Part shown: positions 42,297-49,262 of the stretch, piece after piece
Position numbering within the stretch: position 1 is the first letter of the stretch
Layout of the letters: each line of letters opens with the position of its first letter
Assembly (NCBI GenBank): GCA_001295775.1
Contig: LJIA01000001.1
Location: 434,001 to 498,000, forward strand
Origin: a beta proteobacterium AAP99
Lineage (GTDB): Bacteria > Pseudomonadota > Gammaproteobacteria > Burkholderiales > Burkholderiaceae_C
Direction: 5' to 3'
Length of the DNA: 64,000 nucleotides
The notes under the pieces: model-generated
Database searches by the model: none
Seen by the model: only the letters and a program-made list of their open reading frames with translations
What the model was told of the DNA's origin: nothing
Translations under genes and position numbers: made by a program

Positions 42297-42338
42297 CGTG
42301 GCCGCCGCGTCGCACAGACGCCGCGGCCACGTTCGTTT
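42297..42338. terminator. Terminator hairpin between htpX and the convergent kinase gene
   Basis: 15-nt arms CGTGGCCGCCGCGTC and GACGCCGCGGCCACG (42297-42311 and 42317-42331) pair with one mismatch around a 5-nt loop and are followed by TTCGTTTC. They lie between convergent stop codons. Confidence 0.75.
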
Positions 42339-44227
42339 CAAGCGGCGGGTAGCGGGTAGGTCAGCCGCACGCACGCGCCACCGAGCTGGCTGGCGCCCAA
42401 CTCCAGGGCCGCACCGATCTGCCGGGCACGCTGCTTCATGCCCTGCAGGCCCCGCCCGCTGCGGCTGCTGGCGGGCAGACCGTCGCCGTTGTCGAGAATC
42501 TCGATCACCAGCTGCTGGCGTCGGGTGTCAATGTCGCAGCTGAACTGCGCGGCAGTCGCGTTTGAGTGCTGGATCACGTTGCTCAACGCCTCCTGCACGA
42601 CGCGCGCGAGATGCCGATTGACCCCGGCTTCCAGCTCAATCTCTGCCACGCCGTCCGCCATGTGCCATCGCAAGTCGATTCCCAGGCGTTCAAGCGCGGG
42701 CTGAAGCCGGTAGCGCATCGCCGCCAGGAGGTCACTGAGCGACGCATCCTCAAGCGACAGCAGATCGACCGTGGACTTCATTTCGAGCAGGCAGCGTTCG
42801 ATGGCGTCGGCAATCAGGCGATGGTGCGGCTGGCTACGATCCAGCAAGGCGAGCGCGGAAACCAGTTCGGAACCGGGTCCGTCGTGCATCTCCTGAGCGA
42901 TGCGCTCGCGCTCCTGCGTCAGCGCAGCGCGCTTGTCACGGGAGTGCAGGTTCTCCAGGACGCCACGCAGCTCCTGAGTGCGATGGTGCAGCTCGATTTC
43001 CAGCTGGCGGTTGGTCTCGATCAGCCGCTGCGACAGGCTGGCAAGGCGCCCAACCATGGTCAGCGCCATCACGACGATCAATGCAGGGTAGACAAACGGG
43101 CTCAGGCTGAGGGCGCCGTAGCCCTCGTGGCTGAGTTGCACATTCAGCAGGTCCCAGAGCGCGCTGCTGACCAGGATGACCGTCGACAGGCCTCCCGCCA
43201 GCAGAATGGTCGATCGCTCCTGCCGCCAGGCGAGCAGCATGCCCAGGCCCGTCAGCGCAGCGGGCGCGATGCTCAGCAGCTTCACCAGGGCTGCGCCAGG
43301 CTGTCCAACCAAAACGACCTCGATAAGCACGCCAGCTGACATGCACACGGTGTGCACGGTGCGCGAGGCGTCGAGCACGACAGTTCTGCGTGCGGCAAGG
43401 CGCGCCAGAAAGCCGCATAGCAACCACAGGAACAGGTGAAAGCTCAGTGCATGGACGAGGTACCAGGCCACGGCGGGCAAGGGCGGATCGACGAACAGTT
43501 CGAACAGCAGGTAGCCCGCCCAGGCCAGGGAGGCCGCAGCGAACCAGACATCCGCCGCAGTTTTGGTGTGCCACCACAGCAGGGCCGCGACGAGGCTCAT
43601 GATCAGCATGAGCGAAAACAGGGCTGTGATCGCACCGTTCTGCCAGACCCAGCGCCGCTCGTACAGAGGGCGCAGTTCCGCCTGCGGTCCGATATAGAAG
43701 TCGGCAAGTCCGGCCGCGCCAAGCGGCGCACCCGTAATGACGACGTCAAGCTGGTTGGCACCGGAAGCGACCTGGGCCGGCAGCGTGATCCAGTGCGGCG
43801 TGAGGTTGTAATTGGGCAGGGTGTGTCCGAAAGTGCCGACCTGCGCCGCCAATCGCCCGTTGACGAGCACAGTCAGTACGTTGCCTGCGCGAGGCAGGTA
43901 CATCGCCAATGGCACGGCGGGGTCCGTGACGGTGAAGAAGGCGCGATACGCGTAGGTGCCGCGCAGGGGCGGGCTGGCCACGTCCCACGCATGCGGGAGT
44001 GCGACACGCCCGATCCGCTGCAGCTCGCCCGTCGGCTGAACTGCGTGCAGATCCGCCTGGTACACCCGCAGCACGGCGCGCGCGGCGTCCGGCGCTTCCA
44101 CCTCCGCACGAGCCGGCGCGACGGCCGGGCCGATGGTCCACGGCAGTGCGATGACGGCGATGATCAGACCGATCAGGACGCGCACCACGTTGCTGCTCAA
44201 TTCAATGCTCCGTGGTCTGCAAGCCAC
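42338..44227 (-). CDS. 7TM sensor histidine kinase, NarL/HisKA_3 type
   Basis: A 629-residue kinase, starting at GTG nine bases after the regulator gene. After a leader comes a periplasmic domain (about 45-190) with LPHAWDVAS and GTYAYRAFFTV, a jelly-roll resembling 7TMR-DISM or glycosidase-type carbohydrate-binding modules. About seven hydrophobic helices (195-400) and a coiled coil follow. The HisKA_3 motif is ERERIAQEMHDGPGSEL with His448, and the ATPase part has EALSNVIQHSNA and DNGDGL. It is divergent from the fibre-secretion genes, so it may sense a cell-surface sugar or envelope signal and control them; this is inference. Confidence 0.88.
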   Translation of the reverse strand: MACRPRSIELSSNVVRVLIGLIIAVIALPWTIGPAVAPARAEVEAPDAARAVLRVYQADLHAVQPTGELQRIGRVALPHAWDVASPPLRGTYAYRAFFTVTDPAVPLAMYLPRAGNVLTVLVNGRLAAQVGTFGHTLPNYNLTPHWITLPAQVASGANQLDVVITGAPLGAAGLADFYIGPQAELRPLYERRWVWQNGAITALFSLMLIMSLVAALLWWHTKTAADVWFAAASLAWAGYLLFELFVDPPLPAVAWYLVHALSFHLFLWLLCGFLARLAARRTVVLDASRTVHTVCMSAGVLIEVVLVGQPGAALVKLLSIAPAALTGLGMLLAWRQERSTILLAGGLSTVILVSSALWDLLNVQLSHEGYGALSLSPFVYPALIVVMALTMVGRLASLSQRLIETNRQLEIELHHRTQELRGVLENLHSRDKRAALTQERERIAQEMHDGPGSELVSALALLDRSQPHHRLIADAIERCLLEMKSTVDLLSLEDASLSDLLAAMRYRLQPALERLGIDLRWHMADGVAEIELEAGVNRHLARVVQEALSNVIQHSNATAAQFSCDIDTRRQQLVIEILDNGDGLPASSRSGRGLQGMKQRARQIGAALELGASQLGGACVRLTYPLPAA

Positions 44228-44236
44228 GAACAGGGC

Positions 44237-45019
44237 TCAGACGAGCCCCAGCAACGCCAGCTGTTTAGCCGCCTGAGCGCGCGTGCGCACCTGGAGCTTG
44301 CGATACACGTTCTTCACATGCGTGTTGACTGTGTGCACGCTGATGGCGAACTGGGTCGCAATCTCCGTGTTTGTGTAGCCCAGCGCGACTTTACGGATGA
44401 TGTCCTGCTCGCGCTCGGTCAGTTCTTCGCGGGCTTGCGGGACAGCAAAGCGTGGAATGGGCAGCTCTGCGGCCAGCGGGCGGGCCGCCGCAACAGCGCG
44501 AGCGGGCGGCAGAGTCGCTGCGCTCTGGAAATACTTCAAGAGTCGGCGCGCGATCAGCGGCGTGATCGGCGATCCGCCGTTGACGGCCTCCACGATCGCT
44601 TGCGCGTAGTTGTCGGTGGCGCTGCCTTTGAACAGGAAGCCGACCGCACCGGCAGTCAACGCCCGCATGACCGCTTCGTCATGGCCCAGCGCGGAAATCA
44701 CGATGATCTCGATGGCGCGACCCGCTGCTCGAACTTCCGCAATCAAGTCGAGGCCTGAGCCGTCGCCAAGCTCCAGATCGACCAGAAGCACCTGGAACGC
44801 CTGGTTGCTCAGCAGTTTTCGGGCTTGCGCAAGGCTCTCCGCCTGGCCGGCCAGATGGACGCGTGGGTCGCCGTGCAAGGCACGAGCAATCCGCTGACGA
44901 CTGTGCAGGTCGTCATCCACCATCAGAACGCGAATACCGCCTCGCGTGCCATCCGGTTCGGGTTGGGCGCGCAGGCGCTGCTCGGCGACGGATTGCGCCA
45001 CCGCGGTGAACTCGGTCAT
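44237..45019 (-). CDS. NarL/LuxR-type response regulator
   Basis: A 260-residue regulator. An unusual 28-residue N-terminal extension precedes the receiver domain, with acidic residues in VDDD and phospho-acceptor Asp81 in LLVDLELGDGSG. A variable linker (about 155-195) leads to the LuxR helix-turn-helix (ELTEREQDIIRKVALGYTNTEIATQFAISVHTVNTH). It is transcribed with the 7TM kinase, away from the fibre-like gene at 45524, and may bind the 500-base region between them. Confidence 0.93.
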   Translation of the reverse strand: MTEFTAVAQSVAEQRLRAQPEPDGTRGGIRVLMVDDDLHSRQRIARALHGDPRVHLAGQAESLAQARKLLSNQAFQVLLVDLELGDGSGLDLIAEVRAAGRAIEIIVISALGHDEAVMRALTAGAVGFLFKGSATDNYAQAIVEAVNGGSPITPLIARRLLKYFQSAATLPPARAVAAARPLAAELPIPRFAVPQAREELTEREQDIIRKVALGYTNTEIATQFAISVHTVNTHVKNVYRKLQVRTRAQAAKQLALLGLV

Positions 45020-45523
45020 GGGTTTGCTCCCTCGTTCGCGGCCTTGAGGGGTTCTCCGGCCGTCGCGTCGTGCCGTTTGCAGATCGCTCGCATTCAGTTG
45101 GTTGCGAATCCGACAACGGAGCGCGGACGATATGGAGCCGCTTGCACGCGGTCAATCGACCGGCCTTGGCATCTCAACGAACTGGGGAGAGGCTGCTACC
45201 GCGTTTGCGGCATGCGACTGGCGCGAACACCTGCGCCGCTTGCATGTCGTCTCACGCGAAATGTGAGCGGGCGCTCGCGCGGACGTGTATGCACATTCGC
45301 CGCAGCAGCACCTCTTCATGTGTGCGAGCTAGCCCGAATGAGTGAGTACGGCGGGCGATCAGCGAGTGACTCGGGCTAGCCGCGCCGAGCGATTGTCGCG
45401 CCGTCAACCGAGGCAAAGAATGCCGCCAGGTGCTCAGCAAATCGTCTGGCATCAGGCCCCAAGAGATGCGCAGCTCTGCACGGCCGATTCAACAACCTAC
45501 GTCAATCTTTGGTGAGGAAAATC
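45020..45523. promoter_or_regulatory. 504-bp divergent regulatory region of the fibre-like locus
   Basis: No gene is convincing here. The region holds a perfect 10-bp inverted repeat (45328-45337 and 45371-45380) about 145 bases before the fibre-like gene. It is also rich in GCGAAC/GTTCGC-like words and AGTGAGTA/GAGTGACTC near-repeats. Such length is unusual in this compact segment and suits several regulator sites for both divergent units. I cannot place a -35/-10 pair with confidence. Confidence 0.55.
45328..45380. repeat. Inverted repeat GCTAGCCCGA / TCGGGCTAGC upstream of the fibre-like gene
   Basis: The arms 45328-45337 and 45371-45380 are perfectly complementary, with a 33-base spacer that itself contains GAGTGAGTAC and GCGAGTGACTC. 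It could be a two-site operator for a dimeric or tetrameric regulator, or an RNA stem if the promoter lies upstream. Confidence 0.65.
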
Positions 45524-45955
45524 ATGAAGAAGCTTGTCATCGTCCTGGCTGGTCTCGTGTCCACCGCTGCGTTTGCCGGCGCGTCGGAAGTGAAGGTCAA
45601 TGGCGTGTCTGCCCAGACCGCCGCATTCGCAGGCAGCGAAGTGGTCAACGCCAGCGGCGTGGCCCGTACCCTGGCTCAGCAGAACATCTCCACGAATGCC
45701 GGCAACGTGAAGATCAACGGTGCCTCCGCACAAACCACGGTGGCTGCAGGCTCGGCCATCGTGAACGAAACCCTCGGCATGAAGAGCACCGCGCTGCAGA
45801 ACGTGTCCAGCAACGTGGGCAAGGTCACGGTGAACGGTCTGTCGACCCAGTACACCGCCGCAGTGGGCTCGCTGGTGTGGAACGCCTCCTATGGCGTGCA
45901 CAGCAAGGCCGTGCAAAACATCGCCACGAACACCAGCTGCGCTGGCTGCAAGTAA
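45524..45955 (+). CDS. Secreted protein of three 39-residue repeats, candidate fibre subunit
   Basis: A 143-residue protein. The signal peptide is MKKLVIVLAGLVSTAAFAGA. The mature part is three gap-free repeats of exactly 39 residues (23-61, 62-100, 101-139) followed by AGCK. Conserved in all three: Asn4, Gly5, Ser/Thr7, Gln9, Gly15, Ser16, Asn20, Gln31, Asn32 and Asn36, with alternating hydrophobics (INGASAQT and ALQNVSSN types). Regular Gln/Asn/Ser ladders of this kind resemble curlin and other beta-solenoid amyloids, though the exact curlin motif is not present. Two Cys close the chain (CAGCK). A GGTGAGG site precedes the start, and a GTG five codons upstream is less likely. Confidence 0.8.
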   Translation: MKKLVIVLAGLVSTAAFAGASEVKVNGVSAQTAAFAGSEVVNASGVARTLAQQNISTNAGNVKINGASAQTTVAAGSAIVNETLGMKSTALQNVSSNVGKVTVNGLSTQYTAAVGSLVWNASYGVHSKAVQNIATNTSCAGCK

Positions 45956-45968
45956 ACACGCGCGCCAG

Positions 45969-46000
45969 AAGGTCGGGGTTCAGAGACCCCGACCTTTTTT
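45969..46000 (+). terminator. Strong intrinsic terminator between the fibre-like gene and the secretion genes
   Basis: A perfect 11-bp stem (45969-45979 and 45986-45996) with a 6-nt loop runs into six T in all (45995-46000). It lies 14 bases after the fibre-like stop and before three co-directed genes, so it probably limits read-through and keeps the subunit mRNA in excess. Confidence 0.88.
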
Positions 46001-46031
46001 GGGCCTTCAATCCAGACTTTCGGGATCCGCC

Positions 46032-46478
46032 ATGTTGCTTCGCTCATCTGCCTGCGGCAGCTGCACACTTCGCACTCTTGTGTTGACTGTCGCCACGCTC
46101 GCATCGTTCTGCGCATGGGCCGCTGCACCGGGCGAAGACCCCATTGTTCTCAACAACACTGCCGTGCCCCAGGGCAGCGCGCAGCCCGGGCTGGCCCCTT
46201 CCAGCAGCGATGCGGCACGCAGACTGCTGCCTGCGCGCATGAAGGCCAAGATGGCGCGCTACCAGGCACGAGCCTTCCGCGACGACCTCGACGACATCTA
46301 CACCGACAACGATGTCGTGCGCAGCGCGTCGGCTGACGGTCTGAAGAAGGTCTGTGTACAGGAAGTCGGCAGCAACACCGTTCCCGCCAACACCGGGCCG
46401 TCATCCGGGCGCTACGGCCCGCAGGCCCGGCAGCAGATCGTCGTGCTGCGCGGTGATCTGGTCAACGTGTGCAAGTAA
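46032..46478 (+). CDS. Small exported two-cysteine protein of the fibre-like locus
   Basis: A 148-residue protein of no recognised family. A long leader (MLLRSSACGSCTLRTLVLTV and on to CAWAAA) directs export. The mature part has a Pro/Ser/Ala-rich linker, a basic helix (ARMKAKMARYQARAFRDDLDD) and a compact C-terminus with two Cys (VCVQEVGSN and VNVCK) that could form a disulfide. It ends in CK, as does the fibre-like protein. It is placed where curli loci carry accessory factors such as CsgE or CsgF, but no sequence link to those is visible. Confidence 0.7.
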   Translation: MLLRSSACGSCTLRTLVLTVATLASFCAWAAAPGEDPIVLNNTAVPQGSAQPGLAPSSSDAARRLLPARMKAKMARYQARAFRDDLDDIYTDNDVVRSASADGLKKVCVQEVGSNTVPANTGPSSGRYGPQARQQIVVLRGDLVNVCK

Positions 46479-46495
46479 AGCCCGCAGGAGCCGCA

Positions 46496-48181
46496 ATGCG
46501 CCGCTTCGTGTTCGTTCTCGGCAGCGCGCTTGCGCTGCTGAGCGGTTGCGCCAATCTCGACGCCCGGCGTGACCTTCCACTGCTCAGCACCGTACCCACG
46601 GAAAACCGACCGGTGGTTCGGCCCGTGCGCTCGGTCTCCAGCTTCTCCGAGTCCCTGGTCTGCATGGACCGCATGTTCCGGGACGCACGCATTCCGCCCA
46701 CACTCATCGCCAGCAAACAGATTCCGGACGCTTCGGGCAAGGTGCCGGTCGCCGCCAAGGAAATGATCGTGACGGCCCTGTCGCAGCTGTCCCGCACGAG
46801 CGGCGCGTTCCGCTACGTCGACTATGAGATCGATCTCGTCAAGCAGGACACCGTCCAGAATCTGACCACGCTTCTGCTCAACAACAATCAGATTCAGCTG
46901 CAGCGGCCGGCGCTCTATGTCAGTGGTGCCATTTCGTTCTTTGACCAGAGCGTGGTGTCGCGCAGCGGCGAGGCCGGGACGTCAGCGTCACGGCTGGAAA
47001 CGGGCTACAGCCGCAATCGCAGCGCTTCGCTCGTCGGGCTGGAGCTTCATCTGGGTGAGTTCCGTTCGCGTACGCTGATCCCGGGCATCGACTCTGCCAA
47101 TGAGGTTGTCATTGGCACCGGCAATGAGGGGCTCGACGTGGCAGGGCGCATCGGTCGCTATGGCGTCCAGTTCAACGTCGGCCGTGACTATGCCCAGGGC
47201 ACCGGCGCGGCCGTTCGCACCTTGGTCGAGCTGGGCTTGATCGAGGTTCTTGGCAAATGGGCTCGCGTGCCGTACTGGCAATGCCTGTCGCTGGATCAGG
47301 CCCACCCGGAGTTCCAACGCCAGATGCGCGACTGGTTTGACGAGCAGAAGCCCGAGGAATCCGTGGCACTCGTTCAGCGGGCGTTGGTGGCCGAAGGCTA
47401 TCTGCAGGCGCCTGTGGCCACGGGCATGAATCCGGTGCTCAAGACGGCACTTGCACGGTTCCAGGTCGATCGCGGCATCACGCCCAGCGGCGACATGAAT
47501 TTCGAGACCTGGGAGCGCGCGCTGCGCAACTACGTGAGCTTCGACGAGAAGGGGCAGCTGGTTCGTGTCGGCTGGGGTCGACCCGGGTTGGGCCAGACCG
47601 ACATCGCCAAGCCGGTCAACGCTGAAGCCCCCGCACTGCCCGAATTGCCCGTCCAGCCGGCCGGCGCAGACGGCAAGTCCGTCGAGCCTGCGGCCATGGC
47701 TGCAGCCGCTGCAGTGACGCGGCAGGTGGATGTGCGGATCGAGAACGTGTTGCGCGGCACCAGTCAGTTCGAGGTGGGTGAGCAGGTCTTCCTGTCGGCC
47801 ACACTGTCGCATGCCGGCTTCCTGTACTGCTTCCTGCAGGATGCAACCGGCACCGTGGTGCGCGTTCTGCCCAACAATCAGCATCGCTCTGTGATGGTGC
47901 CGGCTCGGCAAGCCGTGCGCATGCCAGACTGGATGAGCCCGAACCCGGGCTTCATCATCGAGCCGAGCGACCCCGGTGCAGAGGCTTTTGTGTGCCTGGC
48001 AAGCGATGTCGAGCTCACGCCCAGGTTGCCCGAGCCGCTGCGCGTGGCGCCATTCATGCCGATCCAGGGTGTTCAGACGCCGGAACAGCTCGTGACCTTG
48101 TTCAAGCAGGCGGGCGAGGTTGCCGTGGGTACCGTGAGTTGGCGTGTCGTGCCGCGCACGTCCGTTCAAGTCAAGAAGTAG
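46496..48181 (+). CDS. CsgG/HfaB-like outer-membrane lipoprotein with peptidoglycan-binding and DUF4384 domains
   Basis: A 561-residue lipoprotein (lipobox LLSGC). Residues about 20-285 resemble CsgG/HfaB, the nonameric curli/holdfast secretion channel. MIVTALSQLSRTSGAFRYVDYE, LYVSGAISFFDQSV and GRIGRYGVQFNVGRDYAQGTGAAVRTLVELGLIEV are the family landmarks. Residues about 288-345 form a PG_binding_1 domain (VQRALVAEGYL, FQVDRGITPSGDMNFETW). Residues about 410-560 match DUF4384 (HAGFLYCFLQDATGTVVRVLPNN). It likely exports the repeat protein encoded upstream while tethering the pore to the wall. Start ATG follows GCAGGAG; the gene begins 17 bases after its neighbour. Confidence 0.83.
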   Translation: MRRFVFVLGSALALLSGCANLDARRDLPLLSTVPTENRPVVRPVRSVSSFSESLVCMDRMFRDARIPPTLIASKQIPDASGKVPVAAKEMIVTALSQLSRTSGAFRYVDYEIDLVKQDTVQNLTTLLLNNNQIQLQRPALYVSGAISFFDQSVVSRSGEAGTSASRLETGYSRNRSASLVGLELHLGEFRSRTLIPGIDSANEVVIGTGNEGLDVAGRIGRYGVQFNVGRDYAQGTGAAVRTLVELGLIEVLGKWARVPYWQCLSLDQAHPEFQRQMRDWFDEQKPEESVALVQRALVAEGYLQAPVATGMNPVLKTALARFQVDRGITPSGDMNFETWERALRNYVSFDEKGQLVRVGWGRPGLGQTDIAKPVNAEAPALPELPVQPAGADGKSVEPAAMAAAAAVTRQVDVRIENVLRGTSQFEVGEQVFLSATLSHAGFLYCFLQDATGTVVRVLPNNQHRSVMVPARQAVRMPDWMSPNPGFIIEPSDPGAEAFVCLASDVELTPRLPEPLRVAPFMPIQGVQTPEQLVTLFKQAGEVAVGTVSWRVVPRTSVQVKK

Positions 48182-48188
48182 GTCCTGA

Positions 48189-49262
48189 ATGCGGGCGGTT
48201 CGCTCCCTTGCGTGGCACGCTCTTGCAGTGCTGGGCCTGTGTGCCGCTCTGCTGGCGCCCGGCACGGAGCACGGCACATCGGCCAAGGTCATTGTTCAGC
48301 CCGCACCGCCTGAGGCGCAGCGCCCTGCGCCTGCAGAAGAAGCGGCTGCCAAGAGCTACATCGTGGACAGCGGCCGGGACGAGCTGCTCGAGCAGCTGCG
48401 GGCCGAGTCGAAGCAGGCCAAGGGCGGTGAGGCCAGCCTGCGGCTCGGTCTCCTGTACCTGCATGGGCTGCGCGTGCCGCAGGATGCACGCAGCGCCCAG
48501 GCCCTGTTCGAACGCGCCGTGACGCAAGGCGAGCGGCGTGCCGCAGCGGCAGTGGCCTGGTGCCTCCTGGAGGGTTGCGTGCGCAGCCCGGATGTGGGCG
48601 GCGCGCTCGCGTACATCGCGCGCAACCGCAGCGCGATGCCGGCACGCATGGACTATCTCGAGTGGGTTGCCCTGGGCCGGCAGCTTGCAAGCGATGCGCG
48701 TGATCGGCAGCGGGCACAACTGCTCGACCGAGCAGTGCGTGCGCGCGATCTGCACGCGCAGGTCGAGCAAGGTATCCAGCGATTCGAGGAAGATCGCTAT
48801 GCGGACTCGGCGGAATTGTTTCGGCAGGCGATGCAGCAGGGCAGCCAGGCTGCGAGTCGAAACCTCGAGCTCGTGCGCCAGCGGATTGCGGAGATGGACG
48901 CGAGCAGCGCGCTCGCAGCGGCGAGCACCCCCGCAGAGGCGCAGCGCCTGTTTGCGCGGGCTCAGGCCGCGCACCGTGGCATCGCGCGACCGATCAATTA
49001 CGCTGAGGCGCTCACGCTGTATCGGCAGGCGGCAGCGCGTGGCAGCGCGCCTGCCGGGCGGATGCTGAATCTGATCGTCTCCCGCCTGCGCGCGGATGGC
49101 AGCGTCGACCCGATCTGGATGCAGCAACTCGCGCTGGTCGACATCCAGCGTGACATGGGCGGGATGGTCCGAAGCGTGGCCCCCGGCATGCTCGCCAGAG
49201 AACCCAGCCCGCTCTACGACCTGCTGCCTGCGGCGCTGCGAACGCTTGGCGCGATCCGCTGA
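48189..49262 (+). CDS. Exported Sel1/TPR-like repeat protein of the fibre-like locus
   Basis: A 357-residue protein with a leader peptide (LAVLGLCAALLAPGTEHGTSA). Sel1-like repeats are visible: ASLRLGLLYLHGLRVPQDARSAQALFERAVTQG, then ADSAELFRQAMQQGSQAA and NYAEALTLYRQAAARGSAPAG. Such solenoids bind partner proteins. It begins seven bases after the CsgG-like gene, so it is in the same transcript. A periplasmic chaperone or adaptor for the secretion complex is the natural guess. Confidence 0.78.
   Translation: MRAVRSLAWHALAVLGLCAALLAPGTEHGTSAKVIVQPAPPEAQRPAPAEEAAAKSYIVDSGRDELLEQLRAESKQAKGGEASLRLGLLYLHGLRVPQDARSAQALFERAVTQGERRAAAAVAWCLLEGCVRSPDVGGALAYIARNRSAMPARMDYLEWVALGRQLASDARDRQRAQLLDRAVRARDLHAQVEQGIQRFEEDRYADSAELFRQAMQQGSQAASRNLELVRQRIAEMDASSALAAASTPAEAQRLFARAQAAHRGIARPINYAEALTLYRQAAARGSAPAGRMLNLIVSRLRADGSVDPIWMQQLALVDIQRDMGGMVRSVAPGMLAREPSPLYDLLPAALRTLGAIR

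Follow-up and report, generated by a model that had tools for sequence, protein, structure and literature searches.

To our knowledge, detailed descriptions exist for only a few of the systems by which bacteria export functional amyloids. Q/N-x10-Q/N spacing has been described in CsgA, FapB and FapC, while a CxxC motif is present in FapC and absent from CsgA (PMC6173800). Further, 94% of FapC proteins contain three repeats of 38-39 residues, each corresponding to one layer held by Asn/Gln (PMC12392863).

Here, we analysed 64,000 nt of contig LJIA01000001.1 (GCA_001295775.1, beta proteobacterium AAP99; contig positions 434,001 to 498,000), from now on referred to as the window. An earlier note on this DNA had described four co-directional genes facing a divergent kinase and regulator across 504 bases, a layout borne out by the ORF positions: six ORFs were confirmed at their predicted places, with a minus-strand pair diverging from a plus-strand four-gene unit at 45524-49262 (Table 1). 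It is a well-supported reading that this cassette represents a conserved CsgG-type export unit combining a new kind of predicted amyloid-like subunit (REP) with accessory proteins. Compared with L024, the nearest relative used (a pond Burkholderiales MAG), all six genes show dN/dS values of 0.07-0.24, indicating purifying selection, and REP is the best conserved of the six at 91% identity. The six-gene arrangement is not due to chance. No tandem repeats were found at the DNA level, the REP repeat being visible in the protein only, and Rfam gave no match.

Table 1 Features of the locus, with positions given in the window
Feature	Position	Strand	Supporting detail
Sensor histidine kinase, multi-TM, NarL/UhpB-type core	42338-44227	-	HisKA_3 (weak) and HATPase_c
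NarL/FixJ-type response regulator	44237-45019	-	Response_reg 2.2e-18, GerE 1.3e-16
Divergent regulatory region, 504 bases	45020-45523	.	Mostly conserved with L024, best beside REP
Perfect 10-bp inverted repeat GCTAGCCCGA/TCGGGCTAGC, 33-nt spacer, candidate regulator site	45328-45380	.	
REP, secreted, 143 aa, three 39-aa Q/N-ladder repeats, C-terminal CxxC; predicted fibre subunit	45524-45955	+	
Terminator-like hairpin and T-run between REP and CYS	45970-46000	+	RNA fold z -4.7
CYS, small exported protein, no known family	46032-46478	+	APGEDP, two invariant Cys, end VVLRGDLVNVCK
CsgG/HfaB-like outer-membrane lipoprotein, C-terminal PG_binding_1 and DUF4384	46496-48181	+	
Exported Sel1-repeat protein, probable periplasmic adaptor	48189-49262	+	

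A scan of genome contigs yielded 26 related loci in Polaromonas, Hydrogenophaga, Delftia, Acidovorax, Diaphorobacter, Limnohabitans, a Polynucleobacter MAG, an Oxalobacteraceae MAG and others. Every fetched locus that is not interrupted by a contig end retains the order REP-CYS-CsgG-Sel1 (24/24), and the outer neighbour genes read vary from genus to genus. REP and CYS profiles match an identical set of 24 of the 201 family genomes, and full-length CsgG-like matches (E below 1e-150) fall in exactly these genomes, so that the co-occurrence survey proposed in the earlier note came out in its favor. Among 250 order-wide genomes, strong REP matches are found in the same family only, with one extra marginal match (E 1.6e-4). 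Identical genome sets together with the kept gene order argue for a joint function of the four genes, which a minority of the family carries. The four-gene unit is patchily distributed among freshwater and soil Burkholderiales.

Some related arrangements were also encountered. A plasmid search returned two Azospirillum DUF4384 homologs only, without REP or CYS; these megaplasmid exporter homologs (L077:8863-10422 and L078:8851-10422) adjoin OmpA-family genes. Divergent cassettes at L095:5582-10076 and L098:4462-9557 encode an additional exported protein with a single REP-like unit. Paralogous systems at L093:5189-10495 and L094:5783-11490 contain a shorter CsgG-like lipoprotein without DUF4384, located next to a giant exported repeat protein of 1190-1285 aa, as well as Sel1-like genes and, in L093, an OmpA-like gene. 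These paralogous systems possibly constitute another class built on the same export principle.

The kinase encoded on the minus strand contains a HATPase_c domain (1.8e-9), a weak HisKA_3 match and several TM-like segments. The earlier note had called it a 7TM kinase; its match to 7TMR-DISM fell under the cut-off. Among the 21 informative loci, defined by upstream sequence longer than 3 kb, the divergent regulator is present in 14 and the kinase alongside in 13, with kinase length varying from 283 to 629 aa between genera. Loci with the divergent regulator span Polaromonas, Hydrogenophaga, Delftia, Acidovorax, Diaphorobacter and others, at a spacing of roughly 0.4-0.7 kb. The two-component system is a frequent, non-obligatory partner of the cassette; the suggested dedicated sensor is retained to this extent, but is absent elsewhere. 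That the system is an unrelated neighbour, with the cassette under other control, appears doubtful: the regulator missing in 7/21 informative loci and the variable kinase length would fit such a situation, but retention of the regulator across many genera within this spacing range argues against it. In the intergenic region, the left arm of the inverted repeat is exact in L024 and the right arm is altered there; the single-strand fold of this repeat is not significant. A sigma-70 scan gave no promoter exceeding chance. The hairpin downstream of REP was absent from the list produced by a standard terminator scan, having been spotted by eye and tested separately. A hairpin-like element is located 3' of REP in 14 of the 35 genes compared versus 3.5% in shuffles. 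Given that a hairpin and T-run after REP recur in relatives, REP is probably produced in larger amounts than the exporter, and the hairpin likely acts as an expression step-down between REP and CYS.

REP carries a signal peptide and a repeat ladder of the form Q-x10-N-x10-Q. Within the limits of the alignment, residues Q31/70/109, N42/81/120, Q53/92/131 and N58/97/136 are invariant or nearly so in 34 REP homologs, and Q/N-x10-Q/N pairs are found 293 times compared with 159 +/- 10.5 in shuffles. In nearly all of the 34 homologs the repeats are spaced 37-41 residues apart; 27 of the 34 possess three repeat units (28 with a spurious L041 count corrected) and the remainder four or five; a strict CxxC is found within the last 40 residues in 28/34. 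AlphaFold predicts an all-beta protein with pLDDT mostly >90 over the repeats and four strands per repeat in units one and two, and based on the exact repeat period we infer a solenoid in which each repeat forms one layer. Of the solved structures compared with REP, two functional amyloids rank highest, FapC (Foldseek E 0.002, probability 0.23; Z 3.9, rmsd 3.8 over 107 residues) and CsgA (E 0.11), both with weak scores. Neither REP alone nor its set of 30-34 homologs gave a consistent match in Pfam or NCBIfam, and Pfam gave no curlin match in the window protein or its homologs. A Fap repeat profile, built from FapB/C repeats that a bait modelled on the published motif had recovered in genome loci, scores REP the same as shuffled REP. 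Searching PDB sequences with all three cassette profiles returned nothing relevant, and hhalign of REP against single curli or Fap sequences gave no match, a comparison that is uninformative. As the Fap profile cannot separate REP from its shuffled counterpart, we propose that REP works like a Fap protein, not that it is one, and claim no homology. For the subunit, the curli/HfaB-like label of the earlier note calls for a correction: REP is not a curlin and is Fap-like in repeat length, repeat number, Q/N spacing and CxxC, without profile-level homology. REP is probably a fibre subunit that matches no described family and is closer in look to FapC than to curli.

The CsgG-like lipoprotein belongs to the CsgG superfamily as a distant member. 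In a profile-profile comparison with a CsgG family alignment built from 18 proteins, hhalign gave a match at E 2e-6 (probability 89, 155 columns, residues 79-252), and control profiles of REP, CYS and the Sel1 protein gave none. In hhalign, this family alignment was the one target to give signal. The predicted exporter model matches CsgG structures with a Foldseek probability of 1.00 (E 8e-7) and reaches Z 15.4 over 187 residues (rmsd 5.2), with CsgG structures at Z 13-15 and the next-ranked fold at Z 10.3. Model confidence is moderate (pLDDT 72.5, pTM 0.43); strands at 140-155, 176-188 and 193-207 are modelled in the monomer, with hairpin tips under pLDDT 50. The expected membrane hairpins are thus the model's least confident part, and pore formation is put forward as a prediction. 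The lipobox cysteine C18 is invariant in 34/34 exporter sequences, PG_binding_1 is found in 31/34 and DUF4384 in 33/34 homologs, and the exporter is probably wall-anchored. Pfam CsgG (PF03783) misses the window protein and finds 2/34 homologs (best 0.04), and does detect three further genes of CsgG type in this genome. The NCBIfam HfaB model matches 23/34 homologs weakly (best 1.2e-6), and gives the window exporter 18.9 bits, far under the curated cut-off of 300. The CsgG/HfaB-type exporter of the earlier note is therefore supported by fold, profile-profile homology to CsgG and HfaB-model matches, but the direct profile searches it had proposed missed both the PF03783 and HfaB cut-offs. The three additional CsgG-type genes (L001, L002 and L003; contig C28) comprise two in tandem and one beside small lipoprotein genes.

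The HfaB matches bear on an alternative in which the cassette resembles the Caulobacter HfaABD anchor, with the CsgG-like protein exporting REP and CYS, which would form short oligomers on the surface and attach polysaccharide or another matrix to the cell without long fibres. The peptidoglycan-binding domain of the exporter would also fit such an anchor, which we nevertheless consider unlikely, as REP and CYS show no HfaA or HfaD match and polysaccharide genes were not recognised in the immediate neighbours read. It is very unlikely that the CsgG-like protein instead forms a periplasmic or cell-wall ring in the manner of PelC or FlgT, with REP as a folded beta-solenoid adhesin or periplasmic protein and neither amyloid nor channel. 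In favor of this view, PelC and FlgT share the fold (Z about 9) and the membrane hairpin region is modelled poorly. Against it, the scores of true CsgG are clearly above these, the alignment to it covers residues 40-267, hairpin region included, and a dedicated substrate would be expected to co-occur strictly with its exporter, as the Q/N-ladder repeat protein does.

CYS homologs keep APGEDP at the start of the mature protein, a pair of invariant cysteines and a VVLRGDLVNIC-type C-terminal motif; neither Pfam nor NCBIfam assigned CYS to a family, whether it was scanned alone or with its 30-34 homologs. By likeness to CsgF and CsgB, CYS may act as a plug or nucleator. The last gene encodes a protein with a Sel1 domain (1.2e-7); Sel1 repeats are found in 27/27 homologs, which keep two invariant cysteines. 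AlgK is an example of a Sel1/TPR scaffold, and by likeness to such scaffolds the Sel1 protein may be a periplasmic adaptor.

Most likely, the cassette constitutes an undescribed CsgG-dependent functional-amyloid or anchor system, with fibre formation and channel activity as predicted properties. We consider it reasonably probable that it carries out CsgG-dependent export of an amyloid-like surface fibre or anchor and that, in this organism, it is under the control of its own two-component system. In the proposed mechanism, REP would cross the inner membrane via Sec, as suggested by its signal peptide, arrive unfolded at the outer membrane and exit through an oligomeric channel of the CsgG-like lipoprotein, which may be tethered to the wall by its C-terminal peptidoglycan-binding domain. 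The Sel1 protein could take the place of CsgE as adaptor or scaffold in the periplasm, and CYS could be a disulphide-locked minor subunit in its putative plug or nucleator role. Outside the cell, REP would stack as a beta-solenoid of 39-residue Q/N-laddered layers, three per monomer, as the repeat spacing and the FapC precedent suggest, potentially leaving its C-terminal CxxC free for cross-linking. The terminator-like hairpin would keep the subunit in excess of the exporter. If so, a compact CsgG-type system without CsgE/F and with another repeat type would show which machine parts are essential. The cassette would also account for an amyloid-forming or anchoring capacity of Polaromonas, Hydrogenophaga, Delftia, Limnohabitans and relatives, and would represent a small expression unit for trying Q/N-ladder fibre design.

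An open-access literature search found no paper describing such a four-gene cassette. Similar to curli, the cassette combines a CsgG-fold outer-membrane lipoprotein with a small secreted Q/N-ladder repeat protein and a LuxR/NarL-type regulator close by. However, the exporter is about twice the length of curli CsgG, adding PG_binding_1 and DUF4384, the Sel1 protein and CYS are present instead of the curli accessory components, and REP repeats measure 39 residues versus 22 in curli, with a C-terminal CxxC that CsgA lacks (PMC6173800). Models for CsgE, CsgF and the curlin repeat (PF07012) found nothing in the genome, in line with the prior claim that CsgB, CsgE and CsgF are not recognisable, and curli was rejected as an identity of the cassette on these grounds. 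With Caulobacter HfaABD, the cassette shares a weakly HfaB-like lipoprotein adjoining small exported proteins, but the exporter adds C-terminal domains, and an Hfa identity was rejected based on the HfaB score, far below its cut-off, and the lack of HfaA/HfaD matches. Pseudomonas Fap is resembled in the three 38-39-residue repeats, the Q/N-x10-Q/N spacing and the C-terminal CxxC; FapC ranks first among solved folds for REP, but with weak scores. In contrast to Fap, REP repeats adjoin without long linkers, and no cassette gene resembles the FapF trimeric barrel; a Fap identity was rejected because the Fap repeat profile gives REP no signal over shuffles. We tentatively raise the possibility, which we hold at somewhat below even chances, that the cassette represents a third bacterial functional-amyloid lineage, with a three-layer, Fap-like Q/N-ladder solenoid subunit ending in CxxC, a wall-anchored CsgG-type channel in place of FapF, and a Sel1 adaptor and disulphide protein replacing CsgE/CsgF/CsgB. 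If true, such a lineage would join a Fap-style fibre to a curli-style exporter.
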